The notes below the pieces were generated by a model. It was not told where the DNA came from and searched no databases. It worked only from the letters and a program-made list of their open reading frames with translations. A program made the position numbers and the translations under genes. Below, one piece after another: positions 1,249 through 63,559 of a stretch of DNA of 64,000 bases (its first letter is position 1; every line of letters begins with the position of its first letter). This DNA comes from Eublepharis macularius (Eukaryota; Chordata; Lepidosauria; Squamata; Eublepharidae): assembly GCF_028583425.1 (NCBI RefSeq), contig NC_072805.1, forward strand, positions 13,030,001 to 13,094,000. Direction: 5' to 3'.

Positions 1249-4200
1249 GTAAGCCGGGCGGGGAGCAGGGGAGCCGGGCCGGGGCTGGGGGCGCTCCCGC
1301 CAGCCGCTCCTTCTCCTGGGGCCGCAGGCAGCGCCGCCACACGCCCCTTCCCGCCGCTTCCCCTAGTTGGGGGCGCTTTGGGCTGATCTGTGCAGGCGGC
1401 TCAAGGGAGGCCTTGGAAGGGGCTGGAGGTCCATTGAATAACCAGGGGCCGGATCGCGGCTCTTCCTGTTTTCGTATCAGCAGAAGCTCCCTGCAAAGGA
1501 CAGAAACCGCGAGCCTGTCATTGAGACCGATGCCTTCCTTCCCAGTGGGCATCCAAAGTAGCATCGTTCTCCTCCACTTTATTCCCACAACAGCCCTCTG
1601 AGGTAGCAGTAGGAAACAGCAACGGTCCAGGAGCACCTGTAAGACTAACAACGTTTGTGGTCGGGGATGAGCTTTCGTGAGTCACAGCTCACTTCTTCAG
1701 GTACAGCTAGAATGTGAGTCCTTCTGTTCTTATACCTTGGAAAGTGGAGTGATGGTGAGTGATGGAATGAGTAGATAGATGGACTCACATTCTAGCTGTA
1801 TCTGAAGAAGTGAGCTGTGGCTCATGAAAGCTCATCCCCGACCACAAATATTGTTAGTCTTACAGGTGCTCCCGGACTTTTCCACTGCTACAGGCAGACT
1901 AAGACGGCTATCTACCCATCTTGATCTGTCTCCTGTGAAGTAGGTTAAGCTAAGTGTGTGTGACATGTCCAAGGCCACCCAGTAAGCTGCTGTGCCAGAG
2001 GGGGGATTAATACCTGGGTCATCCAGTTCTTAACCTGACACTGTAACTGCTGCACCAGTCTACCTCAGGATCTTCCTTGCTACACTGCTCTGACACAAAC
2101 TGGTGGTCTTACAAAATCAGTGTTGTCTATTCTGTCTGGCCAAGGGTCTCAGGCTGAGGTAAACCTCATCCCCTGCTACTTGATTCTTCTAACTGGAGAG
2201 GCAGATGATTGAACCAGGATTTTCTGCATGCAAAGCAGAGGCTCTACCACTGAGCCATGGCCCTTTAATGAAGAAGTGGCTTTGTATTGAATCTAACCAG
2301 GGTCTATCAAAATCAGTATTGTTAACTGACTGGCAGTGGCTTCAAGGCAGAAGGTGTTTCATATCACCTACATGTTAAGTGAGTGGCTTGTGCTAAATAT
2401 GGAAGAAATATTTTTTATTTTATTTTTAATCTGCCCTCCCCGCAAGCGGGCTCAGGGCAAGGTACAACATTGATTAAAATACAACTTAAAATCAATCATA
2501 AAAACAGATAAAACCAGCGTGAGTGGACTCTCCATACCACTTGTGGAGGGAGACCGGTGGAATGCTCGGCAATGATGGACTAAAATTAGCCTCTACCATA
2601 TGCCTGGCAGAACATCTCTGTCTTACAGGCCCGCCAAAATGATACAAGATTCTGGCAGGCCCGAGTGTCCTCAGATAGAGAGCTCCAGCAGGTTGAGGCC
2701 AGGACTGAAAAGGCCCTGGCCCTTGTAGAGGCCAGCTGAGCCTCCCTAGGGTCAGGGACCACCAGTAGATGTTTTCCGGTTGAATGAAGTGCTCTCTGGG
2801 GCACATACAGGGAGAGACAGTGCCTTAGGTATGCTGGTCCCAGTCCGTGTGTGTTGGGTGTGTGTTTCTCTTTGGTAGCTCCATAAGAATGCAGAAAAAG
2901 ATAACCTTGTAAAATAGCTTAAAGCTAGAGAAATAGCTTCTCGGCCTGAACATTTTGAGGAGGCTCCAAGTGGTACAGAACGGCGAGACTGATTTATTTA
3001 GTATGCTTTTAAACCCCCCTTCTTTCAAGAGGCTGGCTCACTGTCTCGCATTGAGTTTCCTGGCTGAGTGGGGATCTGAACCCAGGTCTCCATAGTCTGT
3101 GTGTGACAGTTTAACCACTGCACCATTTTCATTCTCTGAGTAGGTTAAAGAGAAAAGAGCAAGAGTCCAGTAGCACCTATAAGACTTAACAAAATTTGTG
3201 GTAGGGTAGTCTTATAGGTGCTACTGGACTCTTGCTCTTTTCTCCTGCTATAGACAGACTAACATGGCTACTCATCTTGGTCTAGGTTAAAGAGAGTCAG
3301 CTAAAGAAAAAGAAGGAACTGGGGAAATTTCCAAATACAATTGATAAACATGTCAAATGACCAAATGACAAGACCATATGCGTTTCGGTCTTGTGTTGGT
3401 CAGCTGTATTTGGAAAATGTTACAGCTTATATAAAGCTTGCTCTGATTTTTTTAATGCACCCTGACATTCAGGCGATGTGTTTTCAAGTTTTCTATTGTG
3501 TACTCTGCAGAATTATCTTGAATATCTTTCATTTGTTTAGCTTGACCCTTGCAGCATTTTCAGTATATTTCAGGTTGAGTTTTGAGTGTCCCCCCCCTTC
3601 TTTTTTTGATTGGAGCAACTTAGTGCTGAAAATAACTTTCTTTTGTTCCTAGGCTGGTGCGTGAATTTGTGAGTCAGAACAGCGCAGCACAGATTAAGCA
3701 TGTAATTCAGATTTTGTCACAGGAGTTTGCGCTTTCCCAGCACCCACATAGCCGGAAAGGGGGGCTTATTGGCTTGGCTGCTTGCTCCATTGCTCTTGGG
3801 AAGGTGAGTATTGATCTCATTTTCCTCGTAGATGAGGACTAAGCCCTTTGTGTGTGTTGAGGGAGGCTACTTGCTGTGTCACTCTGGGGAGGTTAGTTAC
3901 AGCTGAGTGGAAAAGAGGGCTGGTTTCCGCTAATGTCCACTTTGTCTACAGCTTGAGGAAAAAGGGAAGCAACCTGGAAGAGGGCCTTATGTGCACGTGG
4001 CCTGCTTTGGGGTACTTATCAGAAACATCAAGAGATTAGATCCAGAGGAGTTAGCCGTGTTAGTCTGTAGTAGCAAAATCAAAAAGAGTCCAGTAGCACC
4101 TTTAAGACTAACCAATTTTATTATAGCATAAGCTTTCGAGAATCAAGTTCTCTTCGTCAGATGCCTGATCAGGCATCTGACGAAGAGAACTTGATTCTCG

Positions 4201-7200
4201 AAAGCTTATGCTTCAATAAAATTGGTTAGTCTTAAAGGTGCTACTGGACTCTTTTTGATCAAGAGATTAGAAAAGCTTGTGAGAAAAAACGAGTTACTTC
4301 CTTTATCCTCAGCACTAATGATCAGTGTGAGATTTAGAACCCACACTGGATTCTAAACCCCCACTGGGTTCTCTCACACTGAATTGGGTCAGGATATCCA
4401 GTGCTGAGTTCACCACTCATTTTAGGAGACTCAGGATCGGCTCCTGCAGTCCTCGAACTTAAAGACTTGGGGGAGGGGGTCTTCCCTGCACCCCCAGCCC
4501 TTTCTAACTCCTGGAAAGTTTATTCCTGGAAGGATTCACGCATGCTAATAGCGATGCGGGTCAGGCAGCTGCAGTGGGGAGAGAGTAGAACTCTTTTCAA
4601 AAAGGCAGAAGAGGTGATTTTAGTTCCCAACCTACACAACTGCTGGCATGCATCAGTCCCTCCTTGACCTTGAGAATAAACTTTCCAGGGGTCAGAAAGG
4701 CTGCAGGGAGCAGTAGGTAAAATCTTGGACCATCAATGCCTCCTGCTTGATGGGTTTATAGGATCCAAGCCTTTGTGTAAATCTGATTGCAGCATTAAAC
4801 AATTGATGATGTAATGCTGCAATTGCCACTACATTTATTTTAGTTACCTAGGTAGCTTAGAGGGCTTTTACAACGGGTTAGTTAATTTGTGAAGTATGTT
4901 AGTAGTCGTTAACCAAAATAGCTTGTGAGTACCAGATGCCTGGGATTAACAAAGAACGGCTTCACTTTCGGGCTGTACTTGTGAGCTTCCAGAAGAAGCT
5001 GGGAAGCTGTTCTTGGATATGGAATGCTGACTCAATGTTATCCAGCTAAATGAAATTAACCTGCACCAAAATGTTTTCCTTTAATCAACTTTCCTCGCAG
5101 ATCTTCCGTACTGCAGTACGAGCCATCATACTTGTACTGTCCTAGGAGTATTGACCACCCTTTTTGGTCTTTTCTGCACAGGGCTTTTTGTTGGTTCTGG
5201 CCCCATACGGTATCTATTTCTCTCCAGAGTCCTGCATGCATGATCAAATTACCCTGATCCAGACTCCAGATTGCTTCCCAGACGTTTTGCATTCTGCACA
5301 GTGAAAGGCTGCATCAGCTGCAGAGTTGATTTTCCTCTGGGTTTTTTGTGGGTTTTCTCCCTGTGCACATACCCCCATTTTTTTTCCAGCGAAGTCAAAC
5401 CAGGCCTTTTTTTTTTTTGAAGTACAGGATGCTTTCTTCATTGTGAGGCCAGGCCCCGCCTGCGTGAAAAAACCCTTGCAGTTTTCGTAAGCCTCTCATT
5501 TTCAATATAGCTAAGAGAATTTTTTAGAATGGACTAAAAAGTGTGTTGTGTCTGCACACTAACCTCGGCAGTAAGAAGTAAGTCCCTTTTTTAATTTTTT
5601 TAAAACAACAGTGTTGCAAGGTTAGTGCATTGAAAACAACAGCAACAAAAAACTCCCAAGTTTCTTCAGCCCATCAGCTGTCGAATCCTCAGCCGATCAA
5701 ACGACAAAACAACAGGCACCAGAAAGGAGGCATTTTTCTAGTGCAGAAAAATAGACACACTTTGGTTTGACTTCCTTCAGGTGCTGAATTACAGAGGTTC
5801 AAAGTATATCCGGTCCATGTGGATTGAATACCCAGACAACCTGGTGTAAATATGCATGTGGAAAACTCTTGTTGAGGCTCTGCCCTGAGAACACCATTTT
5901 TGTCCATTTTTAGGAAAAGATGGAGGACGGTTCTGTTCTATAAATCATTTCTTTAAGGGTTTAAAGGACACATGACACATGTTCAACTGTTGTGTGGATT
6001 TTCGGCATTGAGGTTATGGCATGGTTAAATGTGATGAGTGGTCGCTTAAAGCATTGGCATGTTTTTAATCAGAGTGGATAAAAATCAATGATTTTTTTTT
6101 AAAAAATTAAAAAATGGATTTTTTGATTTAAATTGGATTTTTTGATTTAAATTGGATTTGTTTTATTTAAATAGGATTTTTTAAATAATGTTTTTTGAGG
6201 AAAATATATTATCATCCAAAGGTTATTCCTTCATGAAATAAGGATTAGTTTTTAATTATGTAGCATAAGGCTGTATATGTTTAAATTTTTTGGTAAATAA
6301 ATTCCATTAATCCATTCACAATGCCATGCTTTTCCAGGGGTTTCTGTAAGATTACTGGGCAGTTTCTCTGGCTACAAGATATTATCACAGATGCTTGGTT
6401 TTGCAGTTCTCAAAACAGTGAATTTGTGTCTGCAGAGATCACATGCCTCTTCTTCACAGCCAAAATGTTATAAAATGAACAGAGTTGAGAAAAACCTTAA
6501 TCCCATTGTTCTACAAACCCATGTACACAGAATCAATCCCTTAAGTGCTAAGTTTCAAAAAGTTCAATGAATAGAAAAAGATTGTTTGGAGTGGAATAGA
6601 TCTGCACAAGAAGAAACTTAGTGTGAGGAGGGAGGGGCAAGCAGTAAAAATGAAAGTGAAACTGGAGATAATTCACCTCATAATAATTTCATAATTGTCT
6701 GTAATGTGCTTCTAATAGTATTAAAAATCAATATTTGTATATAACTGTAAAACTAATATGAACAGTTGTTATTCTAAAAATGAAATCTTCATCTAGTTGT
6801 ATATTAAGGTTATACCAGCAAGAATGAGTCTTTATGTAGAAAACTATGATTTACATCTAGTCTTACTGACTAGTGATTTAAATCGTGATTTAAATCATGA
6901 TTTAAATCAATTTGATTTAAATCAAATCCACCCTGTTTTTAACTGATGATGGCTGTAGGCTTTTTCTAAGCTAATGAAGGCTTTTTGTAGGGAAATACGG
7001 GAATATAAATATTCTAAACCGAAATAAATTCTGGGTTTAAAACAGTGGTGAGGATATTTTCTTTTCTTTTTTTCCTCATAAAACCAGCGCCTTTATTTCC
7101 ATTGATACTGCTTTGTTTTTACATGGTGGAATTGCAGAAGCTCATCATCATTTTAAAATACAAATCCAACTTCATTGCTGCACATTCAGTATGTGTTGCC

Positions 7201-10200
7201 CTGCTGTGGGACTGCATGGGCAGTATTCAGTGTATGTGCAGCTTCACAATGGGGAAATAACATCTGCCAGGGTCGTTTCAGCTCAGGAAAATGGTGGTGG
7301 GGGGGGGGAAGGCTGAAGCCCCTTCTCCAGGTGTCGTGGTCCAGAGCTGAATCGGGTCCCAGTACCCTTGGAAACTTTATTTCCCACATGTGATTGATCA
7401 GAGTTGGGTCAGGGGAACCCACATCCTATATGTGCCAAATGCCATTGGCTAGCTTGCCCCTAATTAATAGATAGCATATTAACAGTGCAGTCCTGTGCAG
7501 AGTCACAAAAAACAGTGATGAGTGTGTTTAGTGTGAGAGTAACTTAAAGATAAATTGCCCTAGCTTTATTTAAACCATTTATATGCTGCCTTTTAACCCA
7601 AACAGGGTCCCTAATGCGGCAAACATCAAGGTATTAAAACAGTTAAAGTGTGTGTGAGTGTATTTAACAATAGAATAAAAACTTACAATAAAAAGTGTAG
7701 AGTAAAATATACAGTAAAAGCAGACACAATCAGGGAGGAGGGCTAATAAGAACTTATTGAGGGTAAACCAAATGAAACGTCTTTCAGGCGCATGCACGTA
7801 TGTGTCCCCTGTCACCTCCACCCCCCCTCCAGGCATGTGCCTTTAAAGCACAAGAGAGTTTAAACTGCAGTTGTGAGGCAGAGCGGTTGAAAGAAAATGG
7901 TTCTGAAAATGGTATGAGTGTGCCTCTTTATATTACAGCCAACCTGTATATATCCTGAGGTCATCCTTTGGAAGGGTTGCATCTTTATTCTTTAATGCTG
8001 ATAGACAGAAGGGCTTATCCATGCCAGTTTCTGTCTTGCTATGGCACACGTGTGCGGGGAGGAGCGTATCCTAGCCCAGGAGAGCACTTCTTTGTGTTGC
8101 AAATATTGCATGTATAGTGGCCCAGTTTAAATTAGATGGTGGGTACCCGCAAAGTCCCTGCAGTAGGTTCTTCAGTCCTATTGGTGTGGCATTTAAACCA
8201 GGCCTTGCACAGTCAGTGTGGAGGGCATTTGAAAACACCAAGGCACCTGAGAGGCTTTCTGTGGCTCAAGCATATGTGCTCCTATTAAGCTCCTTCTGCT
8301 GAAGCAGACTCTTTGCCCATCTGCTCAGATTGGCAGAAGCTCTGCAAGGTCTTTCTCAGCTCTGCATCCTATCCTCGTTTTAACTGGAGATGCCGGAAGG
8401 CTGGACCTGAGGCCTATGGACCCGAGGCCTAAGGATCTGCTTTGCCTCTGAACTGTGAGCAGGACTGGATCGAGAGGGGGCAGGGGGGGTAGTCTGCCCC
8501 CAGCGCTGCCAGGGAGGGGGCCCAGGAGCAGCTGCCAGCCCCCCATGCTGCCTTTTGCTTGCCAGCCGCCCCCTGTCCTGTGGGGAGGCGAATGGCGCGG
8601 GTGGCTTCCCAGCCCCACACACTGCTTCTGCCGGTGCGCCGCGTGGGTGGCACACTCCACCCTGTGTGATGATGTCACAGAAGTGATGTCATCACGCAGT
8701 GCCGGGAGTGCGCTGCGTGCACGCGCGCAAGGAGTCAGACTAGGGTTGCCCTAGGCGCTGGCAACCCTAGATCCTGCCCTGACCATGAGCCCCCCTCCTT
8801 AGGTCCCCTTTCTCCTGGGAAAGCGATGACTGACTTTCTTCCTGTTGGGGCACTCTAAGCTTGTCAGTGACTCACCCTGAGAAGAGTTTGGCCTTGGGTT
8901 CCGTGCTTGAAAATGATTTTTTAAAAATCATCACAATCAGTATTAATGGGGCTGCAGAGTGATGTTGCAGGTGCTTGCTTTCTCTCTCAGATGGAGAATA
9001 ACATTAAGAGAATCTGGCTGCACCTTTTATGCCCGCTAGCTTTCAGGTGGAGATGGAGTTCGACTGAGAGGTTGCCCTACAAATATAAAAGAAGGAACTT
9101 CACTAGCTACAGTCCTCCTGAAAACGGGCATAGAATACATTTTTTTCAAAACAGAGAGAGCGTCGAAGACTTTTGTTTGCTGCTTTTGTCACATTCAGAA
9201 ATGTTTCTGAACTGTATCCTTCTGCATGGTCAACAGTCTGCGAAATATAGGTGATACCTGGAACCACAGACACATCCTGTCTTCCACAGCGAAAATGTGG
9301 CCACTGTCACAGGCTCAGTCAGACTTAGTGCACCTTTGACTCTTCTAATGAGAGAGTAAACCTGTATTTGAATCCCCTTCTGTCTGTTTGGGATCCCAGA
9401 ATGGGAATCAAGGTGGACTTCCCTTGGGTGCTGGTCAGGAAGGGAGGGATAGAAGTTCTTGTGGGACAGGAGCAGCTTTACTGGCAGATTCATTCTTGGC
9501 GGTAGCGCCAGAGCTTGGACAGCAGGAACTTGGCCCTGCCTGAATTAGCAGGCCCAGTGAGGTGCCCAGGAGCCTCGTGGCACTTGCCTGTGCGTCTTCT
9601 GTTGCCTACTTGTTTTTGAATCTAGATTTCAGATGATCTGAAGTGGAACAGGAAGAAAAAACCAGGGATTTGGGTCAGTCCCTACCAACTAACTGGCTAG
9701 CAAAATGCTGAGCATGCCATAGCTGTGCGTTCTTGATTTGGCTGACTTGTGGGTTTGGAAGCTTTTCCGTATAGCTGAGTGGGGAGAATACTCTCCTAGT
9801 TCCTTAGAAACTGAAACAAACAAACAAACATCTGATCTTGTCCTCGGCTGCAGATATTCTGTGGCTTCAAATGTTCTATGATGGTGCCTGCTGATTTTTC
9901 TCCCAGCCTAAATTGTCAGGGGTTCTTGATGCAGGCCTTCCAACCTTGGCCTGGAGCATCTTGGAGTCCAGTACACCCCATAGGGCTAGTTGTCCTGTTT
10001 CAGCTCCAAGTTGCTTTCATGCATTTAGTGACCTTCCTTGATTTAGGCACCATTCAAGCACTGCCCCTTTTCTCCCCACCCCTTGTGGTTTCAGGACTCT
10101 GGGCTATACTTGAAGGAGCTGATCGAGCCGGTGCTGACCTGCTTCAATGACTCTGACAGCCGCTTACGCTACTACGCCTGTGAGGCTCTGTACAACATTG

Positions 10201-13200
10201 TGAAAGTGGCCCGGGGTTCCGTCCTTCCCCACTTCAATGTGTTGTTTGATGGCTTAAGCAAGGTAACAAGATTTCTTTGGATACACAAGCCAAGAGATTC
10301 TCCCACTTCAAGGCCCCTGTTGCAATGCTAGTTTATGCTGTGGGGTGTCTGGCTTGGGCTCCTCTGGTTCAGCAGCTACAGACTTCTGCCCCACGAGAGA
10401 TCAGGTGCCCCCCTCAGCCTACCCTTGTCTTGTCATTGACAGAAGAAGCATCAGTGGGGTGCTTGCACTATTCAGTTTGCAGTGATCACCACCAATCCTG
10501 GGCAGCCCTACTGACTTTGGGGGGATCTGCTGAGAATGGGGCAGAGAGTGAAGGTAGGCAGTGACCCCACCTCCACGCACAGTGATAAAAGATTTCAAGG
10601 AGAATCACTTTTGGAAAATATCTCCCACGTCGTCTCTGACTTTGCCCTGAACTTCAGAGGCCCTGGGAAAGAGGCAAGAGGCTTTTGCTGCTTCTAAGTT
10701 CTCTGTAGCTCAGCATGAAGTTGGGGGAAAGGAAAGGGATGATGGCCGCCAAGGATGGATTGATTTAAATCATCATTTCAATTTCCAGTAAATGTCTTCT
10801 TTAAATCAAGTGGGGTTTTTTTCTGTTCGAAATGCATGCACAGTGACTTGTTGCTCTGTAGATTGAAATAGGCTAGTTTGCAACTAAATATATCATTTGT
10901 ACAGCATAGGAGCATAATCCATAAACATCCATGCTGTATGACTGGCAATAATCAATAACTGGCACTAATAAGTGTCCACTGTTTGAGAACAGAACACTTA
11001 GCAGGTAGCTGGCAGGTATATCTTCTGTTCGATTTTTTCGAGGAAGTTTAAGGTAGCATTCATGGCTGTCTTCCCTCTTCCGTTTTATCATCACAAAAAC
11101 CCGGTCAGGCAAGCTAGGCTGAGCGGATGATGGTGCCTGGCCCAAGATCCTGCCTTCAGGTTCATGGTGGAGTGAGCCTTTGAGCTAACTCTCCAGTCCT
11201 AGTGTGATACTTCAGTCAATATACCACGTTGGCTGTCCCCAACCCAGCGTAGGGCCATATCAAGATACTGGGTGACATACCCCAAACCTTAAATGTCTAT
11301 GATCAGTTTCTAGTTCCTGAGCCGGTAGGAAGCCAACATTTCTAATGCTTAACTTCAGAAGTCAGATATTTTTTCACATTTGTTCTAATTTTGAAAGCAG
11401 CCTTTTTAGTGACACTTTATTGGTTGTGGTTCAGTTTTAAGAAGTCACAATTTCAAGCATGCTTGTTCCGGTTAAATTCAGACTTCTTTTTTAAACCAGG
11501 TTTTTTTTCTAGAAAACGGCTTTTGATATAATTGAGCTTTTATGAGCAGTTTGTTTCCTACCATACCAAAAAGTGTAGACCCTGTTACAGTTACTCTGAA
11601 CATTTTATATGCTTGGCTTAGCCAAACGGTCTTCTCTTTTTGGTTGCTTATGTTTTTTTCTGTCCTAGCTTGCCGCAGACCCAGATCCAAATGTAAAAAG
11701 TGGCTCTGAGCTTTTGGACCGGCTTCTGAAGGTACCTCTCTTCTTCCATACGTGCTTTTTGCACTGAGGCATTTTCATCTCGGGGCTGTGAGGTTTGCTT
11801 GCTGCTGGTGCTGAACCCAGCCCTGATTAAATCTCTCTTAAGGGGATGCACAATCAGTCTGAGTGTAGCAAGAATATAAAAGGGCCCAGTGCCAGAGGAG
11901 AGCTGGCTTGTGAGCATGCAGTCCAAAGCTCTGCAGGATTGGGCAGCTGGATGTGTGAAAATGAGGAGGAGCTTCTGGCAACGCTTGGAAGGCTGGGGGA
12001 TTCTTCAAGCCAAACTGCCTGGTGTAGCAATGTAAAATTCCGAGGGCAGTGTTCATTGTATCCTGGGCTCCTCTCTCCTCCTCCTCTCAGGGCAAAGTGG
12101 GATAAGAGCCCTGGGACAGGGATTGCGGAAGGGAAGAAATCTTAGCTGGAGCTAGTGGGGGTACATAACAGTGAAGAGCAGGCTTTGGATGCTGTTCCAT
12201 GTGAAGGAGGAAAGCTCTGTCCCTGCAGCAAGCGGCTTGATCTATGCAAGCTGCTTCGGCTGTTGAATTGATTTTAGAAATGGATAATGCTCCAAATCCA
12301 CAGTTTTTCTGATGCATTCTTGACAAGCAAACATTTGATGCAATTTTCATCTACCTTTGTTTATTCAAAAATACTAAACCAAACAAAAAAAGTCAACCAG
12401 TGTGCATTTTGAACAGCTGTTGGATCAATTCACAGCTAATTTAATTCAATAGTTTGAATGGCAGTCCAGGTTTTCTTAAGGAAAATATTCAACTTATAGG
12501 GGATACCCCAATTATATCTGATTTTTAAATCTTTAAATATAGCTATGAGGAATTGAAATAGTCTTTTTCTAATTTTGCTAATCTTACTTGATGTTGCACT
12601 TTTAGAGGCGTTAGTAACATTTGTATAAAAAGGAGTTGGCTTGTTATGACACCAGAGCCGTTCTGTTGTGTGTCCGTGTGTTGCAGTTGTTACTGGAATT
12701 AATCTGTGTGGGTGTATGATTGTACAACAAACAAGGAGAGTAGGTGTTTTCAGGTGGGTCTGTTTGGGGTAGGAGGCAAGGGAAATGCCAGCGATTCAGG
12801 CATAGATGCTCAGAAATAGTACATAAACTAACTCGGGAGTATAGAGCCAGTGCAGGCAGTCCTTGTTGCATGAGCAAACTCATAGTACAAATTATCGTGA
12901 AGCTTCTACCAGGGATCACTGCTGTGTTTGGAGAAAGCTGGGTGGGGGTTCACGAGAGGACCATCTGTTCCATTGTGTGCCACAACACCGAAAAAGCTGA
13001 GACGGGTGGTCTGGGGACATTGCATGATGGGAAGCTGATAGCGCTCTTTCGATGTTGGGTCGAGATGCTGGCGGGTGGGGATTAGAGAATCTTAATGTTC
13101 CTTTGTTTTGGCTTCGCAGGACATTGTGACTGAAAGTAACAAGTTTGACCTTGTGGGCTTCATTCCCCTGCTCCGTGAGAGGATCTACTCCAACAACCAA

Positions 13201-19200: not shown

Positions 19201-22200
19201 GGAAGGCCAAACTAAGCAGAAATATGGCCTGGGAGGATAACAGCCTGCCTCAAGGAAGGTATTTGTTGTATGGGGAGGGCCACTTATCCCTCCCTCTGGT
19301 TTGAGGGAGTCTTAATACTTTTATCCAACTAGGGAGAGAGTGGGGGGTGGTGTGCGGAGGAATTCATAGAAGAAAAGTTTCCCTTTTGGTGAGCCTTTGC
19401 TTTCTTTGGTGCCGAGTATCTCAGTTCCTCTAACTGCTGGCCCTTCTGGTGTATTGAAGTCCTGGGATATACCTGGGACCCTGCCCGCGAATGCAGTGGG
19501 CAGCAGCAGGGGGGTACATTCCTTACATTGGTGGCGTGCAGGCATCAAAGAGGTGGCAAATGTGTGTAACCAGAGCCTGATGAAGCTGGTCACTCCAGAA
19601 GACGACGAAACTGAAGTCAAGCAGCCCACAGCAGTCCCCCAAGCAGAGGGAGACCACGACAAAGCTCTCTCCAAGCAGGAGGTGGCTTCAGCTGGTGAGT
19701 TTATCTTTCCAGATATCTTCTGACTACTTTCATATAGACTGTATTGGTGTAAATAAGTGGCTAAAAATGACATTTGTCTCATTGCTAAACTGCGTTGGCA
19801 GGAAAACTTAACTGTTTGCAGTTCTAGGACTTGTGTTCAAATATGTAATTGACATACCATTGTAGAATGGGGCACAGACGTAGAAGCTTTTGTGGAGAGG
19901 GTGCAGGGCAGGCCTGTCAGAGGTACATTTATTTATTACTTATTGCTGACTTCTCAGGAGGAGCCTCTGCCCTGCCCCCTTACCCTGGCCATTAGACTAG
20001 CTTAGCTCTTGCCCCAGCCTCTGGGGTTGAGAAGGCCTGACCCTTTTACTTGCATGGGCCAATGTGCACACCCTTGGGCAGAGAGGTACTGATTTGTCAG
20101 GGTCTTTGGTGCTGGTGGTGGTGGTGGGGGGCTGTCTTGATGCAGTCTCTTCCCGTGGTGATGGGCCTTGGCTTTGCATGCACCACCCTGCAGGGGGAGA
20201 TCTGGGGCTAGATCCCGCCAACCTTTCCATGGATGCAGCTTCCTTCTCACTACAGCCTTATCTCTCATGACTTTTTGATCCGCACGTGTCCCATGATCAC
20301 CCCCTTAGTTGCCTTGTGGTCAGAAGCAGCCCCCCCCTTCTTTTGTCAACGGAGAAACTAGTAGGGCAAACCTGTTTATTGGAACCCAGGTTCTCTCTTC
20401 ATCTTGCAGATAATCTTATTTATAAAATACTTAGTAAGTTCTTTTAAAAAAAAATTAAAACCATGTATCCTTGCCTAGAGGCTTATGAAAGAGAACCCAT
20501 TTTTTTGGAAGAGCCCATCTTATTGCAAGTAGTGTACGATACTGAAACTAATGTAAATGTCTTGCTGTAGGCTGCCTGGATGTCTCAAATGGTTCCAGTT
20601 TTGGCAATGCCAGCGTTTTCATGCCAACCAGGTAATGTTCTTCACTTTTGTTTGTGATGCTGGGTGGTATCTGTTTTGAGGGAAGGCGAGGAGATTTTTG
20701 TGCTGCATCTAGACCTTGCGTCATGTTATGCCACTGAACCGAAACAGGTGGTCCTCTTGGTTGTTGCTTGTAACACTTAACGGAGCACTCATTCATTCAG
20801 AGAGCTGAGCTCAGTCTTAAAGAGCTTGTGCTAGATGGCATTCAAAACAGCAGGAGAAAGACGTGCCGATCTTGGGTGCACTTTGTGCACGTTGCGCCTC
20901 ATTTGCTGGGAAAGGGGGTGGGGCTCAAAGGGGTCAGTCTTTCCCATGAAGTCCCACAGTGGTGTTCAAAACAATTCTTGCTTGCGAATAGTAAATCTCA
21001 GCCCCCTCCCCCAAATAACTGCTTGGGATTAAATTTGGTGACTTTGTGTAAACTTGCTCTTGCCTTTCTCTGGATACGTAATTTCTGGTTTTGCAAAAAT
21101 GCACCATCAGGCTTGGTGGTCTGATGTGCTTTTGAGGCACTCTGCACTCCTCCAGCGGTGTGCTGTGAGGGCAAATCACGGACCTTGAAGGTGTTTGTCA
21201 AAAATGTGTCACTTTAAAAGAACAGGCCGGCACAGTCTGGAGACAGAGGCCATGGACACTGAGAGATCTCTGTCTTTTGGTGCTACACCTCTGAAGATGC
21301 CAGCCACAGCTGCTGGCGAAACGTCAGGAACTACAATGCCAAGACCACGGCAGTACAGCCCGGAAAACCCACAACAACCATCGCCATGGATAGTGCCTGT
21401 GTAAACAGGCAAAAGTACAGCAACTTTGCCCTTGGAGGGTTCCCATTTAAGCAGCTTACTCTGCTTGTGAACTTCCAAGCATTTTGCTGGAGGCTGGAGC
21501 ACTAAAATCTTGCTAGGACTGCCCCCTCCCCTCCAATTCAGGCTTTAACTTAATTTTTGTGCTAGCTTAATTTCCCTCCTTTGTGGCGAAGGGTGAAACT
21601 CTGCTGGGCACCGAGAATGACATCTGCAGTGGTTTTTTTTGTGCAGCCTCACCATTGTACCACTGAGGATCGCTGTAACTCCAGCCTAACTGCTTGTTGT
21701 TGAACTGTCCTTAATGACATTGGAGGTGGCAGACGACAGTCTTCTTGCTGCTCTTGCCAGTCCTTTTCACCATTGCAGTAATTCTCTGTGCTGAATTCCA
21801 TCTTCAGTTCCGCCCCTCTTGCTCCAGTGCCTCCTGCCAGTAACGTATGATCCCCCAAGCATGTCCTCAAGGGAGCTTTTATATTAATACTTTCAGGCTA
21901 TCACAACCTTGACATAATTTGCCTTTTCAGCTTTTCTACTTTCTGTAACTGACTCTCTGGATTGTTATGGCAACACCATATGGACCAGGGCCAAGAATAT
22001 TTTTTGGAAGGATATCAAGGCAAGGGTTAACGGTATATGCTGGCAATAGAGCGGTCTTTCCATCCTCTTGGCTTTTCAGATGTGGATGTACCAAACGCTG
22101 GGCTCTAATATGCTAGTTTCTAACACTGGTTTCTTTTAGTGTTTATAAATGGCTCAAATGAGAGAATAGCTTCATGTGCAGTGTTTATGGCCAAATGATA

Positions 22201-28200: not shown

Positions 28201-30527
28201 GTTTCACTCGCCACAGCCCAGAGCTGCAGGGCCTGTTGTGCCAGTCTGCTCTGAAGAATGGGCTTTCTCACTCTAAATCCCCAGGGGCTTTTCTCCACGT
28301 GATACAGATTTCAAGTACAGTAACAAAAGCTTTTGCCAGCGTGAGTGGCTGTCCTAATCCAGTTAGACTTTGATTTTTGCCTGCTTGGATTTCATCCTGT
28401 GGAGTTCCCAGCTTTCTTCTTGCCAAGGCTGAAATTTGGGACTTGGACATATAAAAAAGGAGAACAAGGGCGAGAGTAATGACCTGTGACTCCTTCCCTC
28501 CTGCTTGTCCCCACACGCAAGCCTTGTGTACGGATAAAAAGTTTGCAGTTAGCTGTGTTGATCTTCACACTCCTTGGCTCGAGGATGGCGTGTGGGTGAG
28601 CCATGTTGGCAGTGTAGCTGAGCTGTCCTCCGTGAGGCAAGCAAATTTAATGTCTTTCTGTGATTCCAAAAAGGGACTTTAGATTCCTAACACGCCATAG
28701 GTACTAATAGCATGCATATCCCACCCCTTACTGTTGTTAGTTTGCGCAACTCATTTTCGTTTTTGCAGGTCTGTGATGGTAATCAATTGATTGATACTTC
28801 ATTTCAACCTCATTAGATTGATGTATTTTATTTTCTTCATTTATACCCTACCTTTCTCTCCAGCCATAGATCCAAAGGAGTTAGCTGTGTTAGTCTGGAG
28901 TTGCAAAATAGTAAAGAGTCCGGCAGCACCTTTAAGACTAACCAACTTTATTGTAGCATAACCTTTTGAGAACCATAGCTCTCTTCGTCAGATGCAACTT
29001 TATTGTGGCATAACCTTTCGAGAACCACAGCTCTCTTCGACGATGCATCCGACTAAGAGAGCTGTGGTTCTCGAAAGCTTATGCTACAATAAAGTTGGTT
29101 AGTCTTAAAGATGCTACTGGACTCTTTACTATTTCTCTCCCGTGGGGATGCGAAGCAGCATACATCATTGTCTTAGTGGTAGAGCCTCTGGTTTGCATGC
29201 AGAATTTCCTAGGTTCAAAGAACTGAGTAAGAGGTAGCGTGAAAGACCTTAACCTGAGACTGGAGAGCTGCTGCCTGTCAGAGTTGACGATACTGACCTT
29301 GATGAACCAGTGGTCTGACGTGCTATAAGGCAGCGTATTGTGTTCAGTAGGGGTGAGGACACTTTTAAGTTGGAGGAAGGCTCCTTAGGTTGGAGAAAGG
29401 CTTCAGACTGGAGCCAAAAGGAAAGGTGTGCTATAAATATTTTAATAAATACATAAGTAAACTGTGCTCAGTGTAGGATGGGGTAGGATGCACCCCGTGG
29501 TCTTACAGCCTACCTAGCTCCAGGGCAGCACAGGGGCTGAAGGAAGCACACATTCCCTCCCCACGTGTGCCGCTGCTGCCTGGAACAAGTGGAGCAGATA
29601 GAGAGCAGGGACTGCCCTGCTTGTGCTGCTGTGGCCATCTCTAAGGTGAGTCTTGGAGCCTGTCAGCCGCGGCACGAGTGGAGGTACGCCTCCTCTTATG
29701 CTACCTACATCGTCATCTTCCAGTGTGATAATAGCCGTAGAGCTGTCTTATGTAAAGCCTTCGTATTATATGTACTGAGTGTGTAAAAACTTGCCTTATA
29801 AAAGTATTTCCCTGTTTGCATTGTTCACCTTTTGTGGTATGGGCTTCCGTGAGACATCCGGATGCTTAATTTTGTATCGCCATTGTTTAATTGTTTCCCT
29901 TTGGCAGGATGGGAGCTTCTTTGTTTCAGGCTTCTAGAACCCTGTGCTAAAGGAAACCTAAATTCTGCAACCAGAAAACCCAAATCTGATATGGGGAAAT
30001 GTAGGCAGAGGCCATTATCTTTCTGTGTTAAGCTCTGGAGAGGGAAGAACAGAATAACATGCCTGGGAAACTGCGGGTGGCAGGGGATCCACAGAGAAGG
30101 TGTGTTGGGTATAGGATCCAAACTCACCCCTAGCTGTTGAGGGGCTCACCTCATTGATTCTAGCTTTGTGCTTTTGATGGGGTAACTCCCCCCCGCCTAC
30201 ATTTTCAAAAGGCATTTCAAACATGGCATGAAGGAAAAAGAGAACCCATAATCATGCTTGTATGTGTGACTGCCCTTTAAGTATATATGCGCTTCTCCAA
30301 AGTTGTGAAGGCTTCACATGTTCTCCTGCAGCTGATGCAAGGATACTTGGGAGGGAAAGGGTTGGAAGCAGCTCTCTGGAAGTTGGCTGAGTGCGAGAAT
30401 GACTCACTGCAGCAGCGAAGGCCTGCATCTTTCTGTGTAGGAAAGGGTTCATCTGCAGCTTCTGTGAAGCCCCCAAGGCTCCTGCTTCTGGTTTTCTTGA
30501 ACAAAAGAGCATGTGATTGGAACAGGA

Positions 30528-30614
<87 letters not shown>

Positions 30615-33600
30615 AGTCAGGGAAGTCTCTTGCACGCAGGCTGACTGTGGTGCTTTCCATGGTCATAGATCCAGAGGAGTTAGCCCTGTTAGTCTGTAGT
30701 AGCAAAATGCATCTGACTAAGAGAGCTGTGGTTCTCGAAAGCTTATGCTACAATAAAGTTGGTTAGTCTTTGAGGTTCTACTGGACTCTTTACTACACAG
30801 GCCGGTTCTCTTGCCCATAGCCCCTAAATTTCCGGAAGGCTCACGCAGGAAAAATCCCCCTGTCATTTGGCACTCCTGTTAAGCAGCTGTTTGCTGCTTT
30901 GGGGCATCATCTACTCAGAACTGATCTGAAGCAGGGATGCCTTTTACAAAACAGCCCTGGTGGCTGTGAAATTTCTGGTTGAGAGACCAAAGGGCAAAGG
31001 TCAACATTCCCTTTCTCCCCTGGCCAAAAAGGGCAGTTAAATTGTCACAGGAAGATTGATTGGGATCTCTTTGGGGGAGGGGGCTGGAACAAGTTTACTT
31101 TTCACAGCTCACAGTCACTTGGGGGTCTGCCAAAATTGGGGCTCGCATTCTTGGCCCTGGCACCATCTTGCCTGGGTTGCTTCCTGCTCCTCTCTTGAGC
31201 TGTGTATTAAAAGAGAAATGAATTAAAGGAGCTCCTTGACATGTCAGAAAAAGAATTCATCGCCCGCCATTGCATTCAAGTCCCAGCCCAGGCAGCCTTC
31301 CCGTGAGATGAATTGCCTCGTTCCTTCCCTCAGTGATGTGCCTGGGTTCCTAAGCTGCCCTTCAGCCTCAGATGGCAGGCGATTGCCACTAGGGGGCAGC
31401 TGAGGCCACAGCAGCCTCTCCATTTCATATCTGACTCCCAGTTAGTGTAGGAATCTGTACCAAAACGTCCCACTTTCTGCAGCGGCACTGTGTTGCCTCC
31501 CTGTTCGTCAGCATGGGTCATGATAGCCCTGGGACTTGCTTGTGTGTAGGTCCTGCACAGAACTGAACAGGCTGCAGCCCCATCCTCGTAGGCTTCCCGC
31601 TTCCTAATCAGCGTTTTGGAGCCAGTGTTCCAACTGCTTTCCAATCAGCATCTACAACCCTCCCCTGCCCCACCCAACTTTGCAGGGGTTGGTGACATAC
31701 ACATGTCTCGCTACTTCCAAATGTAAGGAAACCCTTTTCCTTAGTTGTGCTCTTTGTCCGTGAAAGGAAGTGAGAAGTAAACAGTGGCTCCTTTTTTGTA
31801 CAGAGAAGGGACTTGTAGCTTCTCTCTGTGTCACACGTCTCCCCAGATATTGGAAACAAGCCATAGACCGGCTTCCCTTCCTTTAATTCTCTGCCTCTTG
31901 ACAGCTCCACATCTACAGAAGGTGGCAGAGAAGCCCAGCAGGTTGACTCATGGGCTTGCCCTGAAACTTGGGCCATCAAAAGCAGGGAGTGATGGAACAG
32001 GTGGAGTGATGGACTAGGCCAGAGTGCCTGATGGACTGGTGTGGTAGGAATCACGGCTGGTGTCCCTGCGCTGTGCATTTGTAGTAGAAGTGAGGGAGCT
32101 CTCTGGGAGTGTGAGCAAAACGGCACAAGGAAGAAAGGTTGGAGGAAAGCTTTGCACAACACTGTGTTATGGAGGAAGTGGCTGGGGGGAAAACGTGGGT
32201 TCAGATTTCCATCTTCTCTGGCGAGTCTTGTATAGGCTCTCTCAGCCTAATCCACCTCACAAGGTTGTTGTGAGGAGGGCCACAGGTACAGTCCCAAGCC
32301 AAAGAAGGATAACTAAAGATGTAACACTTCTGGAAAATTTCAAAATCATAGGGAGATCTTTTTTTTTCTGTTCTTTGGTGAAGCCTGAAATTTTGGGAAA
32401 ATTGGGAAAAAAAACCCTTATCAAACCTAACATCCTTTACTGCTTTAACAACATGATAATTGCTGTGTTGTTGAAGGAGGGGCCGTGGCTCAGTGTGAGA
32501 GCATCTGCCTGGCATGCAGAAGGTCCCAGCTTCGGTTCCTGGCATCTCCAGCTAAAAGGATCAGGTGCTGGAGGACGTGAAAACCCCCGGAGAGCCACTG
32601 CCAGTTGGAGCAAACAGTACTGACCTTGTATTGTCGAAGGCTTTCACAGCCGGAGAACGATGGTTGTTGTGGGTTTTCCGGGCTGTATTGCCATGGTCTT
32701 GGCATTGTAGTTCCTGACGTTTCACCAGCAGCTGTGGCTGGCATCTTCAGAGGTGTAGCACCAAAAGACAGGGATCTCTCAGTGTCAGAGATCTCTCAGT
32801 GTCTCAGTGACACTGAGAGATCTCTGTCTTTCAGTGCTACACCTCTGAAGATGCCAGTCACAGCTGCTGGCGAAACTACAATGCCAAGACCACGGCTATA
32901 CAGCCCGGAAAACCCACAACAACCATCATAATACTGACCTTGATGGACCAATGGCAGTATAAGGCAGCCTCGTACATGTACAAAATGCATGTTTCATCAT
33001 TTAGGCAGTATACGAGAATGTACCATTTAGCTCCCACACAGTTTAAAAGTGGGGATGCTCTAATTTTCTGCCAGCAAAATTGCAAGCACAGCCAATACTG
33101 GAGAGAGGACGCTGCAGACTGCTGCACTCGCTCTAGCTCAGCAACGATGTCTTGATTTTGCCAAGTGAAAGACGGGAAAAAATAAAATTAGAAAATGTAA
33201 TAAACAGATTTTGGAGTAAACAAAAGGAAGTGTGTTTGGATAGAAACTGTCTTGTATAGACATAATGGGACTACCAGCACTTTTGGATATTGACTTAAAA
33301 TTTTAACACTGAAGACACAGAACTCTTCATTTGCGAATTATATGTGGTGGAAAGTGCTGTCAAGTGGAGGTTAACTTATGGTGGCCAAAAGGCGAATAGA
33401 GGTGGTTTGTCATTGTCTGCCTCAGAATGTGACCCTGGGCTTCCTAGTTAGTCTCCCATCCAAGCACTAGCCAGGGCAACCCTACGTAGCTTCCAAGATC
33501 TGATGAGATAGGGCTTGTCTGGGTCATCCAGGTCCATATGCATGCATACGTGTGTGTATGTATGTATATGCTGTACTGTTATAATGTTATAGCATATAAA

Positions 33601-39600: not shown

Positions 39601-42600
39601 CAATGACACCCAGCTTTATGTGTCTTTATCCAAATCACCTGGCAATGCCTGAACCAGAGCCTTACTGGCATTATTGTCATTAAACAAATGAAGGTGAATG
39701 TTGAAATTGAATCCTGACAAGGTGGAGGTAATGCTGGTGGGAAAGGACGGGATCTTGAAGGGCATTGTGCCTTCCCACTTTCGATGGTGTTCAGCAGAGC
39801 CTTACTGACTCAGTTAAGAGCCTAGAGGTTATACTAGACCCAGCACTATTAGTAGAGAAGCAAGTTGGTGTAGTGGTTAGAGGGCCAGTGTGGTGTAGTG
39901 GTTAACGCTATCGGACTAGGACCTGGGAGACCTGGGTTCAAATCCCTGCTCGGCCGTGAAAGCTCACTGGGTGTGTTGGTGGTTGCACAGCAATTAGATA
40001 TAAGTTTTCAGAGTTGCAGAGTTTGATGATAGCGCAGTGGGAATAAGTAGACAGACTTCTGTGATTCTAGCTCTATAAAAATACTTTACTACATAATAGG
40101 GTAAAAAGGGTATATTTGTTCGCAGAAACAGCAAACAGCTTCTGACTACATCTTGATAGTCTCAACTAGGTCCTAGAGAGAGAAAAACTTAGACTGCGTG
40201 GTCTAGTGAAGAAGTAATAGTGTAGTGGCAGCAGACTGCTGAACAAAGAGCAGTAAAGCCTTACTCTATGTTGCTAGCTAATTGCCCCCCAATAAACTGG
40301 CTCATCCAATAGACAATCCTGGATTCTCTCATTATGACTAAAGACACCCACTTTCTCTGGCGGGAACTTCTCTGGAAGCCTAAGTGGTCCTACGCTAACC
40401 AGCTATTTGACTAAACAAACAGAATGACAATTTAACTCTTTCATGACTGAGCATAGGAGACTTGCAAAAAGTCCAGCAGGGTGACCTTGGGCCACTCACA
40501 CACTCTCAGCCTAACCTGCTTCACAGGGTGGTGGTTGTGCGGATCAAATGGAGGAGAGGGAAACTACGTGTGCCACTTTGGATCCTCATTCGGGGGAGAA
40601 AGGCTGGGTGTAAATAAAGTGAATGCAGCTGAAAGGAAATTCTTCCTTCCATTTTTGTGCAGCATGGAATTTGGCTCTCTTCCTTGATTCAGCTAATCCA
40701 GCCCTACATACCCAGGCTGCGGTAACTTCAAGGCCAGACTTTTGAAATGCACTCCACCTGAGTCAGCCCCTAAAGTCCACTTGATTCAGATCAGGCTGCC
40801 TCAGTTGATGGATCAAAAAGAGTCCAGTAGCACCTTTATGACTAACCAATTTTATTGCAGCATAAGCTTTCGAGAATCAAGTTCTCTTCGTCAGATGCAT
40901 GATACAGAGACTGGTCAAATATAGAAAAGGAGGGAGAGAAGGGGAGGAGAGAGAAGAGGCAATTAGGGGGGAGGGGGAGGGTGCAACCAAAACATTCCTT
41001 TGCTAGTATATGTAAACATCTCCTTTTGGTGTGTGGATCAGTTGGCTTCAAAGGAGTTTGCCCTGTTAGTTTGTAGCAGCCAAACAGCTAGACCATCCAA
41101 TTCCAATGCAGTGTGAGCCTTCAATAGCCACAGCTCTCCTTGCCAGATGCATCTGACAAAGAGATCTGTGGTCCCCGAAAGCCCACGCCAGGTGCCACTG
41201 AGCTCCCCCAGACCCCGCCTCTGTAAAGGAAATCTGTTACCTGTGATAATGTGATAACCATTCATAGTCCCTATTCAGTCCCAGCTTGACAGAGTCAAAT
41301 TTGCATATGAACCATATGCAACCATGGATGTGGAGGCTTTATACACCGATATCCCACATGCAGATGGACTGCTAGCCATAGGGAATACTATCCCGGACAA
41401 AACCACAGCACACCTCGCCACTAAACTTTGTCACTTCGTACTCACTCACAATTACTTCGAATTTGGTGACAACTTATAGCTACAGATTAATGGCACAGCC
41501 ATGGGCACACACATGGCACCACAATATGCTAACATATTCATGGCGGACTTGGAACAATGCTTCCTCAGCTCCCATCCACTGGAACCACTACTATACTTAA
41601 GATTCCTGGATGACATCTTCATCATTTGGACCCATGGGAAGGAAGCTCTTGAGAGATTTCATCAGGACTTCAATAACTTTCACTCTACTATCAACCTAAG
41701 CCTGGACCACTCTACACAACAGGTACACTTCCTGGACACCACTGTACAACTACATAATGGACGAATAAATACCACCTTATACCGGAAAGCAACAGACCGA
41801 TACTCATATCTACATGCCTCCAGCTACCACCCTAAACATACCACTCAGTCTATTGTCTACAGCCAAGCCTTACGTTACAACCGTATCTGCTCCAATGCTC
41901 TCGACTGAGACTCACGCTTAAGAGATTTACAACAAGCATTTTTGAGACTACAGTACCCACCAAATGAAGTGAAGAAACAAATCAACAGGGCCAGACTAGT
42001 ACCCAGAAACAGTCTGCTCCAGGACAAACCTAAAGGAACTAACAACAGAACACCACTGGTTGTCACCTATAGCTCCCAGCTCAAACCCATCCAACGTATC
42101 TTCAGTAAGCTACAACCCATCCTGGAAAATGATACCTCTCTCTCAGAAGCCCTGGGTGGAAGACCTTTCCTTGCCTACAGACAACCCCCCAATCTTAAAC
42201 AACTTCTCACTTACAATCATGAATTGGCCAGCAGAGTCACCAGCACAGGTACCAGGCCCTGCAACAGACCCAGCTCTGCCCCTATATCTACCCAGGGAAT
42301 ACAATTACAGGACCCAATGGCATCAACTACACTGTCTCTGGCTCTTACAGCTGTTCATCCTCCAATCTGATATATGCCCTCATGTGCCAACAATGTCCTT
42401 CTGCTCTCTACATTGGACAAACCAGCCAACCTCTACGCAAAAGAATAAATGGACACAAATCTGACATTAGAAATGGAAACGTCCAGAAACCAGTGGGAGA
42501 ACACTTCAGTCTACCAGGACATTCCATCAAAGACTTAAAGGTCGCTGTAGTTCAACAGAAACCTTTCAAAAACAAAATCCAATGGGAGGCTGCTGAACTG

Positions 42601-52029: not shown

Positions 52030-52270
52030 ATAGTGAGGAGTCCAGTAGCACCTTTAAGACTAACCAACTTTATTGTAACATAAGCTTTCGAGAACCACAG
52101 CCCTCTTCGTCAGATGCATCTTTGTCAGATCTTTGTCAGATGCATCTGACAAAGAGAGCTGTGGTTCTCGAAAGCTTATGCTACAATAAAGTTGGTTAGT
52201 CTTAAAGGTGCTACTGGACTCTACTATTTTTGTGACTACAGACGAACACGGCTAACTCTTCTGGATCTAA
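52030..52270. mobile_element. Penelope-like foldback with about 11-bp TSD
   Basis: Arm 'agtccagtagcacctttaag' mirrored by cttaaaggtgctactggact, with a short repeated gatctttgtcagat at the centre. The right outer end reads gacgaacacggctaactctt. The flanks agcctcctatt (52019-52029) and agcatcctatt (52271-52281) differ at one base. The left arm keeps the hammerhead-like core on the - strand; the right arm core is altered (CTGACAA). Confidence 0.7.
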
Positions 52271-62780: not shown

Positions 62781-62834
62781 CAACTCTCTGTTGGGCCCTT
62801 ATGCTTGTTTATAACACCTTCCCACCTCTCTGTG

Positions 62835-62925
62835 CACCTGACGAAGAGAACTGTGATTCTTGAAAGCTTATGCTACAGTAAAGTTGGTTAGTCTTAAAAG
62901 TGCTACTGGACTCTTTTCTATTTTA
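62835..62925 (+). mobile_element. Penelope-like single end with 13-bp TSD
   Basis: A 91-bp sense copy from the ribozyme-like core to 'gtgctactggactcttttct'. ccacctctctgtg at 62822-62834 and 62926-62938 is a perfect target duplication. This is the simplest insertion in the window. Confidence 0.8.
62838..62875 (+). ncRNA. Candidate hammerhead core (type G)
   Basis: CTGACGA, one A, gagaa/ttctt stem (last pair G-T), GAAA, agc/gct stem III with loop ttat, then A. The copy begins three bases before the core, so the 5' strand of stem I would come from the target DNA. Confidence 0.4.
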
Positions 62926-63559
62926 CCACCTCTCTGTGTCAGCATATTTGCTCCTCTGGCTCTCCCTCTCCTTCAGAGTGCAAACTGTCTGGGAAGCAAT
63001 CACAGCGTGAGGGAGGATTATACTCGCCAGTCAAGAAGAGGCTAATCTGAGCTGGAGCTAGGTTTGTCAGGTCCCCCCAGTAACTGGTGGGAGAGTGGTG
63101 GCAGCGGGGCACCAATTTTCCTACCTTGCAAGCCAAGTAGGGCCTTGATTTTCTGCAAAAAGTGAGACAGAAACATCGGAGTGCCGGCACCGTGTGCAGG
63201 TACATAGGCTCCAGATAGTGTCCTGCCTTCTGGGAGCAAGAGTATCATCATCTCTTCCTCTTCTGGGCTCTTGAAGGGCACAGCCCTTTACCATCTACCC
63301 AATATTCTTTTTTCCTACTTGGAACCTGAATTGGGTGTGGTTAATCATTGTTATCCTCAAAGGGGTTTATTCTTCCAAGTGGAATCCATAAAAATTGTAC
63401 ACTTCTCAGTTCTGAAGCTGCTAATCCTTAACTAGTAGGCTTGGCCCTGTTTTTGAAGACGCGGGTATTGGTAATATCTGAGTGTGCTTTTTGTCAGCTG
63501 GCAATTAATAATCCCATGTTTGGTTGGCTTGGGAAGAACTGAACTATTCCAAAATATGC

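Follow-up and report, generated by a model that had tools for sequence, protein, structure and literature searches.

Minimal type I hammerhead ribozymes of animal Penelope-like elements (PLEs) are reportedly the subject of work by Cervera and de la Pena in 2014 and by Lunse, Weinberg and Breaker in 2017. The parts of PMC6155905 and PMC7761336 that deal with PLEs describe minimal hammerheads without helix III; PMC7761336 also considers that they might work as dimers and calls their role unknown. The DNA considered here is a window of 64,000 nucleotides, the whole stretch analysed, from the squamate Eublepharis macularius (contig NC_072805.1, positions 13,030,001 to 13,094,000), and it holds dispersed copies of a hammerhead-like motif that we call types A, G and B.

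Two described systems are close to them. For PAc (Poseidon_Ac, of the Penelope/Poseidon clade, from Anolis carolinensis), PMC11167929 reports that the RNA cleaves only with protein, that cutting is abolished by single changes of C3 or G8 and partly regained in the double exchange, that a hammerhead-dead RNA inserts normally in vitro and that RNA-seq ends at the cut site were not found; reverse transcription starts at two adjacent sites, which yields an optional tail of 30-40 bp, and both target strands are cut and extended. For the rotifer Adineta vaga, PMC3846280 describes Penelopes whose arms face head to head across palindromic junctions, one of them with a tail, and reads these as products of self-priming.

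We read the motifs in this window as minimal type I hammerhead ribozymes of PLEs, with an open stem I, one extra base before stem II, a loopless stem III of 2 bp and a cut after an NUH triplet; catalysis is the part of this reading that we infer, and we put the probability of the reading as a whole at about 0.86. It rests on the cores themselves, their covariation, the reverse transcriptase (RT) and GIY-YIG remnants found beside type G, and a cut geometry in type B like that of PAc.

Hammerhead cores and their fold

A first-pass annotation of the window had named six places (1802, 4177, 43014, 62838 and 21291 on the plus strand, 32750 on the minus strand) at which CTGANGA is followed by one extra base, a stem of 5-6 bp and GAAA, and all of these parts are present at each of them. 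The heptamer by itself is not enriched in the window (48 seen, 44.1 expected); joined to stem II and GAAA it is found 11 times, where dinucleotide shuffles give 0.08 on average. The full minimal-hammerhead descriptor, which adds the zero-loop stem III and the NUH triplet, has 10 matches in the window and none in 100 dinucleotide shuffles, and the extra base precedes stem II in 10 of 10. Copies additional to the six lie at 32845 (+) and at 1700, 4160, 40894 and 52113 (all -), and further, more decayed copies with altered core bases at 28991 (-), 29042 (-), 29049 (+), 30713 (+) and 52146 (+). The copies and arms are as follows:

21288..21328, plus strand: type B minimal hammerhead; descriptor match, parsed by position
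21257..21382, plus strand: solo type B insertion around it, with an 8-bp flanking duplication GCCATGGA at 21249-21256 and 21383-21390
32713..32753, minus strand: type B hammerhead, minus arm of head-to-head pair 32786-/32809+; descriptor match
32842..32876, plus strand: type B hammerhead remnant, plus arm, triplet lost (TAC); parsed copy
1798..1837, plus strand: type A hammerhead, long-tail arm; descriptor match, tail scoring
1665..1704, minus strand: type A hammerhead, short-tail arm paired with 1798..1837; descriptor match, tail scoring
4173..4211, plus strand: type G hammerhead, short-tail arm; descriptor match, tail scoring
4126..4164, minus strand: type G hammerhead, long-tail arm paired with 4173..4211; descriptor match, tail scoring
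43010..43048, plus strand: type G hammerhead, long-tail arm of the RT-bearing element; descriptor match
40860..40898, minus strand: type G hammerhead, inverted short-tail arm of the RT-bearing element; descriptor match, tail scoring
52078..52117, minus strand: type G hammerhead, short-tail arm; descriptor match, tail scoring
52142..52181, plus strand: type G hammerhead, long-tail arm, core altered to CTGACAA; parsed copy, tail scoring
28953..29087, both strands: type G arms, tandem hammerheads 29046- and 28995- opposite 29045+
30668..30791, both strands: type G pair, minus arm of tail positions 126-86 only, plus arm of positions 1-82
62835..62925, plus strand: solo short type G insertion, beginning at the hammerhead's first bases

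The fold was parsed on 15 window copies, with type B placed by position in the script. Stem II reads GTGAGC/GCTCAC in type A, GAGAA/TTCTC or GAGAGC/GTTCTC in type G and GCCAGC/GCTGGC in type B, with variants in each; the extra base before it is A in types A and G and T in type B. Stem III has 2 bp and no loop (two bases plus A15.1 and U16.1), AG/CU in A and G and AC/GU in B. The loopless helix III followed by NUH is found in 13 of the 15 parsed copies, as AG/CU-U, AG/CU-C or AC/GU-C, and is lost in the other two, 28991 and 32845. In the type B copy at 21288..21328, stem I is CCT/AGG (21288-21290 and 21326-21328), the core CTGAAGA occupies 21291-21297 and is followed by the extra T at 21298, stem II is GCCAGC/GCTGGC and has GAAA (21318-21321) on its 3' side, stem III is AC/GT, and the cut is predicted at 21325|21326, with an ATG (21297-21299) that overlaps the core. 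The type G copy at 43010..43048 combines stem I GCAT/ATGC, stem II GAGAA/TTCTC and stem III AG/CT, with a predicted cut at 43044|43045.

Stem I had been called not evident in types A and G, which describes A, where it is weak, and not G, where a four-pair GCAT/ATGC stem is found: all four pairs form in 9 of 10 parsed rows, one of them with a G-U, and 62838 has three of four. The 3-bp stem I of type B, CCT/AGG, is present in two of three parsed copies. The stem III of 3 bp with a ttat loop that had been proposed for type G can be drawn on paper, and we dropped it since it would use up the ATGC of stem I and provide no triplet for cleavage. The extra base, regarded before as an oddity, is indeed present in all ten descriptor matches; it need not be a defect, because the PAc ribozyme, which has the start-codon and cut geometry of type B, cleaves when protein is present.

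Given that stem III lacks a loop, a single copy is expected to be a poor ribozyme. The stem III words are self-complementary (ACGU, AGCU), so that two copies could share a helix of 4 bp in a putative dimer; alternatively, the protein of the element may help the RNA to fold, as shown for PAc in PMC11167929.

Lineages, covariation and conservation

Types A and G are 71-78% identical over their first 80 bases and are therefore relatives, so that the three families of the first-pass annotation reduce to two lineages, A/G and B. A covariance model built from the 12 window A/G copies recovers those copies and five more decayed ones (29005-29048 and 42716-42760 and 41108-41152 on the minus strand, 42755-42799 and 41147-41191 on the plus strand), with noise beginning at E 0.36.

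For covariation, 30 A/G-like copies chosen for intact length were aligned, 12 from the window and 18 from the adjoining 200 kb of the same genome (264 kb in total; coordinates outside 1-64,000 lie in the 100-kb flanks and follow the window numbering), type B standing outside the counts. The alignment leaves out the descriptor match at -89996 on the minus strand, which crosses the boundary between two sequence segments, the tandem copies 29042-, 98669- and 98688+, the degenerate pairs internal to the pseudo-long terminal repeats (pLTRs) and, among other short or decayed copies, -89973, -74725, -73954, -33586, -30220, -16304, -16310, -246, 95481, 95489, 122561 and 139875. Nine pairs were tested against 500 shuffles, the sixth stem II pair (columns 20/25) having been dropped beforehand. 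Pairing holds in 95.2% of the 270 pair cells, against 90.3% in shuffles, none of which was as high. Changes on both sides are seen at four of the nine pairs (1/500 shuffles) and in 15 cells, against 1.4 after shuffling (0/500), and the covariation score is 0.255 against 0.168 (0/500), slid structures reaching at most 0.121. Stem I is paired in 92.5% of its cells.

Between A/G and B, both sides have changed and pairing is kept in stem III (G-C to C-G), in the second and third pairs of stem II, and in the second pair of stem I, which is A-T in A/G and C-G in B. The covariation of stem II asserted from the sequence is thus upheld both on the 30 A/G-like copies and between the lineages, and stem I covaries too. 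The minority fraction across the 30 copies is lowest in stem III (0.011) and GAAA (0.017), followed by CTGA.GA (0.061), stem I (0.092), stem II (0.14) and the other columns (0.181).

A number of results weigh against the ribozyme reading. An Rfam covariance search of the window, at the gathering threshold and up to E 10, listed no hammerhead family, and a search of two short stretches likewise gave none; the absence of a covariance-model hit was what the first-pass annotation had named as refuting its claim, and formally that is what was found. In our judgement the Rfam models are probably not built for a zero-loop stem III with an extra base, which would account for the missing hit. Run on the window, the A/G model does not match type B, so what B and A/G have in common is the core and the fold, not the overall sequence. 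Within the A/G copies, the number of further pair types is ordinary (86/500 shuffles as high among the 30 copies), 6 of 12 window rows leave the sixth pair of stem II open, and every core base is kept in only 19 of the 30 aligned copies; the 12 window copies by themselves, on ten pairs, give a weaker signal (score 8/500, pairs changed on both sides 48/500), and all of these shuffles leave the shared ancestry of the copies in place. Stem I of type A is weak, with 2 and 3 of 5 pairs. Single-copy folding is weak as well, with z of -1.2 for B, -1.6 for G and -0.6 for A: the minimum-energy fold of B (21270-21350) contains stem II, but its TCTGA pairs with TCAGG in place of stem I; type A folded alone takes a form other than the hammerhead; and a hammerhead-like minimum is obtained for G only, where stems I and II stand in the proposed register. 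Weak folding of lone copies would be expected if, as is said of this ribozyme, it depends on a second copy or on protein.

The missing Rfam hit, together with the richness of the copies in inverted repeats, would also suit a simple hairpin at the end of a retroelement, bound by the RT or acting as a DNA palindrome, with an accidental likeness to a hammerhead. We regard this as very improbable: B and A/G differ overall, yet both hold CTGANGA, the extra base, GAAA, a palindromic stem III, NUH and stem I in register, and no shuffle yields a match to the full descriptor. Pattern scans for relatives in collections of viral and prokaryote contigs gave no match, which carries little weight because of what these collections hold. 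A DNA search of the same genome with a 126-base query likewise returned nothing, under a procedure that passes over very common words.

Penelope-like elements carrying the motifs

The combination of an RT with a GIY-YIG endonuclease is a mark of endonuclease-bearing PLEs. One type G insertion retains both:

40814..43133, plus strand: type G Penelope-like element, an inverted repeat around remnants of the RT/endonuclease open reading frame (ORF)
41480..41908, plus strand: RT fragment; the match to Pfam RVT_1 scores 27.8 bits (E 2.4e-6), narrowly below the curated cut-off of 29.6
42223..42819, plus strand: GIY-YIG endonuclease fragment; the Pfam match scores 25.3 bits (E 1.9e-5), over the cut-off of 22.6
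42716..42799: older degenerate head-to-head hammerhead pair in the type G pLTR, centre AGATGCATCT, 36.1 and 34.8 bits with the A/G model
43058..43118, plus strand: stem-loop GGTTAGTCT...AGACTAAC, fold z only -0.96

The two protein remnants, each identified in its own Pfam search, lie on the same strand, in broken frames, between the G cores at 40894 (-) and 43014 (+), and thus upstream of the latter. The inverted repeat extends over 501 bp at 96% (40812-41311 against 43096-42604), and the element is flanked by a 13-bp target duplication, TCAGTTGATGGAT, at 40801-40813 and 43134-43146. An RT followed by GIY-YIG, inverted pLTRs, a target duplication and tails are what is expected of an endonuclease-bearing PLE, and the Penelope-like context claimed earlier holds for type G through its RT and GIY-YIG remnants. 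For types A and B, homology or geometry would suggest a place in the pLTR or at the start of the ORF of such an element. Type B is present here as short pieces only, with a predicted cut 26 nt after the ATG at 21297-21299; the cores of A and G are without ATG.

Head-to-head pairs, tails and target duplications

The insertion survey, which covered the window and 100 kb on each side, hence one genomic region, gave 18 A/G head-to-head pairs, drawn up manually from BLAST results, together with 11 solo A/G-like copies; fragments are outside these counts. A script scored each arm for the tail CAGACTAAC past the inner end site and found both anchors in 16 of the 18 pairs; 0-5 mismatches were taken as a tail and 6-9 as none, a cut set after the values were known; among 3000 random 70-mers, 35 stay at or below 5 mismatches. 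A short-tail arm and a long-tail arm are combined in 15 of the 16 script-scored pairs, with their hammerhead ends facing each other. The remaining one, pair 18, has no tail on either arm; it was set aside because its plus arm stops early, near position 56, and its anchor was matched with 3 mismatches. Pair 17, whose minus arm is without its 3' half, was left unscored, and pair 5 (30708/30709), with a tail-only minus arm, is mixed by eye. With pair 5 in and pairs 17 and 18 out, the chance that 16 of 16 pairs are mixed under random pairing of 16 long and 16 short arms is 1.1e-4. Both type B pairs were excluded from tail scoring; their arms end alike at ACAACAACCA. Short arms stop in the loop (GGACTC...) of the stem-loop at 43058..43118, and long arms stop past its 3' strand.

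Direct flank repeats of at least 11 bp were found at 10 of 23 insertions tested, two of them solos, in flank windows placed after the flanks had been read. Repeats of 11-18 bp flank 8 of 16 A/G pairs and 2 of 5 A/G solos tested, although the 18-bp match of pair 12 may exceed the true duplication; pairs 17 and 18 are outside this test. Examples are the type G pair 4126..4164/4173..4211, with 14 bp (ATCAAGAGATTAGA) at 4027-4040 and 4258-4271, and the solo type G insertion 62835..62925, with 13 bp (CCACCTCTCTGTG) at 62822-62834 and 62926-62938. The remaining tested insertions, including both of type B, have shorter matches (4-9 bp), some no better than chance, and for the 8-bp duplication of the type B solo an equally long match turns up in 5 of 400 random flank pairs. 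A clear target duplication was not seen at the A pair, 30708/30709, the B pair 32786/32809, pairs 8 and 16, or the solos 125659 and -47901. The window copies look like dead insertions.

Insert 5' ends and the role of cleavage

If cleavage made the 5' ends of inserts, these should start at position 36 (ATGCTAC...). Among 25 G-type bodies in the 264 kb, none starts at the predicted cleavage site, and in every one the half of the hammerhead just upstream of that site is present. Self-cleavage thus appears not to be the source of the insert 5' ends, and we reject it in that role for these copies. Insert 5' ends pile up at the 5' edge of the hammerhead, ATGCATCTGA. Of 28 listed G arms, 24 were scored as unlike the reference pLTR in the sequence upstream of where the hammerhead begins, and four as extending further. 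These counts need correction: of the four, 52142 was probably scored so spuriously; -27042 and -25858 were scored as stopping but share upstream sequence of their own; and 4164 and 4173, at the threshold, probably extend by a few bases. About 21 of 28 then stop at the first base.

The palindrome ATGCAT at this edge sits exactly at the midpoint of 29046/29045, -69956/-69957, 99802/99801, 122564/122561 and the old pLTR pair, and it recurs in the stuttered centres of 52117/52142, 143405/143416 and 98669/98688. Either transcripts begin at the hammerhead 5' edge or cDNAs join there. Template jumps from the 5' edge seem to have given the tandem hammerheads at 28995-29046 and at 98546-98785. In the latter, each facing arm is a tandem hammerhead pair in which a first copy is joined, near its position 40, to position 1 of the next, as though a single tandem template had served for both arms or the template had been switched at the RNA end.

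The hammerhead fold could instead be ancestral and catalytically idle, kept by descent or as a protein-binding RNA fold with no part in transposition, a possibility that we take seriously while doubting it. The 25 G-type bodies fit it, as do the weak stem I of type A and the lone B and A RNAs, which do not favour the hammerhead fold; so too do the normal insertion of hammerhead-dead PAc RNA in vitro and the lack of RNA-seq ends at the cut, both reported in PMC11167929. It sits less well with GAAA and stem III being the least variable columns, with the compensation of stem III between A/G and B, which would not be needed if the RNA did no more than bind a protein, and with the cleavage of PAc RNA in the presence of protein, reported in the same source. 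We keep to the reading of the motifs as ribozymes, in which cleavage would act elsewhere in the cycle, for instance in splitting tandem transcripts, and not at insert 5' ends.

On this reading, target-primed reverse transcription would likely begin downstream of the hammerhead, at either of two adjacent sites, run back to or past its 5' edge, and often take place on both target strands, giving head-to-head pairs. More tentatively, each paired insertion may consist of two coupled reverse transcriptions, one from the inner and one from the outer start, perhaps on one RNA held by a protein dimer, whose cDNAs meet via ATGCAT at the RNA 5' end. Since ATGCAT is self-complementary, the 5' strand of stem I would then also serve as a cohesive end by which the insertion is closed. 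The arms of 30708/30709 span positions 86-126 and 1-82, that is, one template without overlap, and if this coupling is real they would represent both cDNAs on one template.

The pairs might instead be copies of pre-formed palindromic masters that already carried one long and one short arm, as the ATGCAT centre common to several pairs and the 15 of 16 mixed pairs would allow. This we find unlikely. The centres vary, with TGATCA in 4164/4173, about 50 nt of unique sequence in 1705/1797 and 24 nt in 52117/52142, and so do the arm lengths, from the tail-only arm of 30708 to the 501-bp inverted arm at 40898. Moreover, the stem II loop type is equal between arms, or one base off, in the six G pairs compared (4160/4177, 40894/43014, 52113/52146, 28991/29049, -27046/-25854 and 99798/99805), across different loop types.

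Other features of the window

Sub-threshold Rfam matches to plant microRNAs at 3136-3255 and 52025-52234 (MIR821, and MIR529 on both strands) fall on PLE pairs in head-to-head order and most likely reflect long inverted repeats, not microRNA genes. An exon of a VAC14 homologue lies at 10047-10328 (+; Pfam Vac14_Fab1_bd, E 1.1e-21); the reading frame near 1145-1252, for which a Pfam search gave no match, we take to be the first exon of this homologue. Two matches to the tRNA model above the gathering score, at 32479-32550 (+, 46.9 bits) and 2196-2264 (-, 33.1 bits), are probably heads of tRNA-derived short interspersed nuclear elements (SINEs), and a 5S rRNA-like match at 33424-33541 (-), with 34 bits against a gathering score of 38, is possibly a 5S-derived SINE. 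A retrotransposon gag-like reading frame at 46173-46445 (-) gives a weak Pfam DUF4939 match (E 0.009, below the cut-off).

Comparison with known systems

Because PLEs with minimal hammerheads have been described (PMC6155905, PMC7761336), the kind of ribozyme found here is already known, as is the kind of element that carries it, and the remaining interest lies in the anatomy of the insertions. With the minimal type I hammerheads of PLEs, as those sources portray them, our copies share the lack of a helix III beyond the core, dispersed copies, a location in pLTRs and a proposed action as dimers, and no tested feature sets them apart. They differ from canonical hammerheads I-III in that no Rfam model hits them and in that stem III has no loop in the register that gives stem I and NUH. 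Raw sequence confirms a pairing constraint on PLE hammerheads, which Rfam overlooks, in two lineages of one animal genome. Retrozymes, non-autonomous elements described for metazoa in PMC7761336, also have type I hammerheads on dispersed non-coding copies; the copies in this window end at PLE-type tail sites, some with target duplications.

The likeness to PAc goes further. By its published description (PMC11167929), PAc has its start codon at the start of stem II and a cut 26 nt further on, which is identical in type B; stem I, stem II and loop II are held in common with the copies here, and the short and long tails resemble its two RT start sites and its 30-40 bp tail. Types A and G, without an ATG in the core, depart from PAc in this respect.

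G-type insertions in this region show no cleavage footprint at their 5' ends, a pile-up of ends at the hammerhead 5' edge, and the use of two tail sites about once each per pair. The pile-up and the one-each use of tails suggest a testable mechanism for PLE integration, a process still poorly understood. The Penelopes of Adineta vaga (PMC3846280) resemble these pairs in their inverted arms, junction palindromes, short target duplications and a tail of about 31 bp that is optional on one inverted pLTR. Here, by comparison, the junction palindrome of several pairs is ATGCAT at the hammerhead 5' edge, and one long and one short arm are combined in 15 of the 16 script-scored pairs, a near-strict pattern that, in a comparison with PMC3846280 and PMC11167929, adds to that rotifer account.

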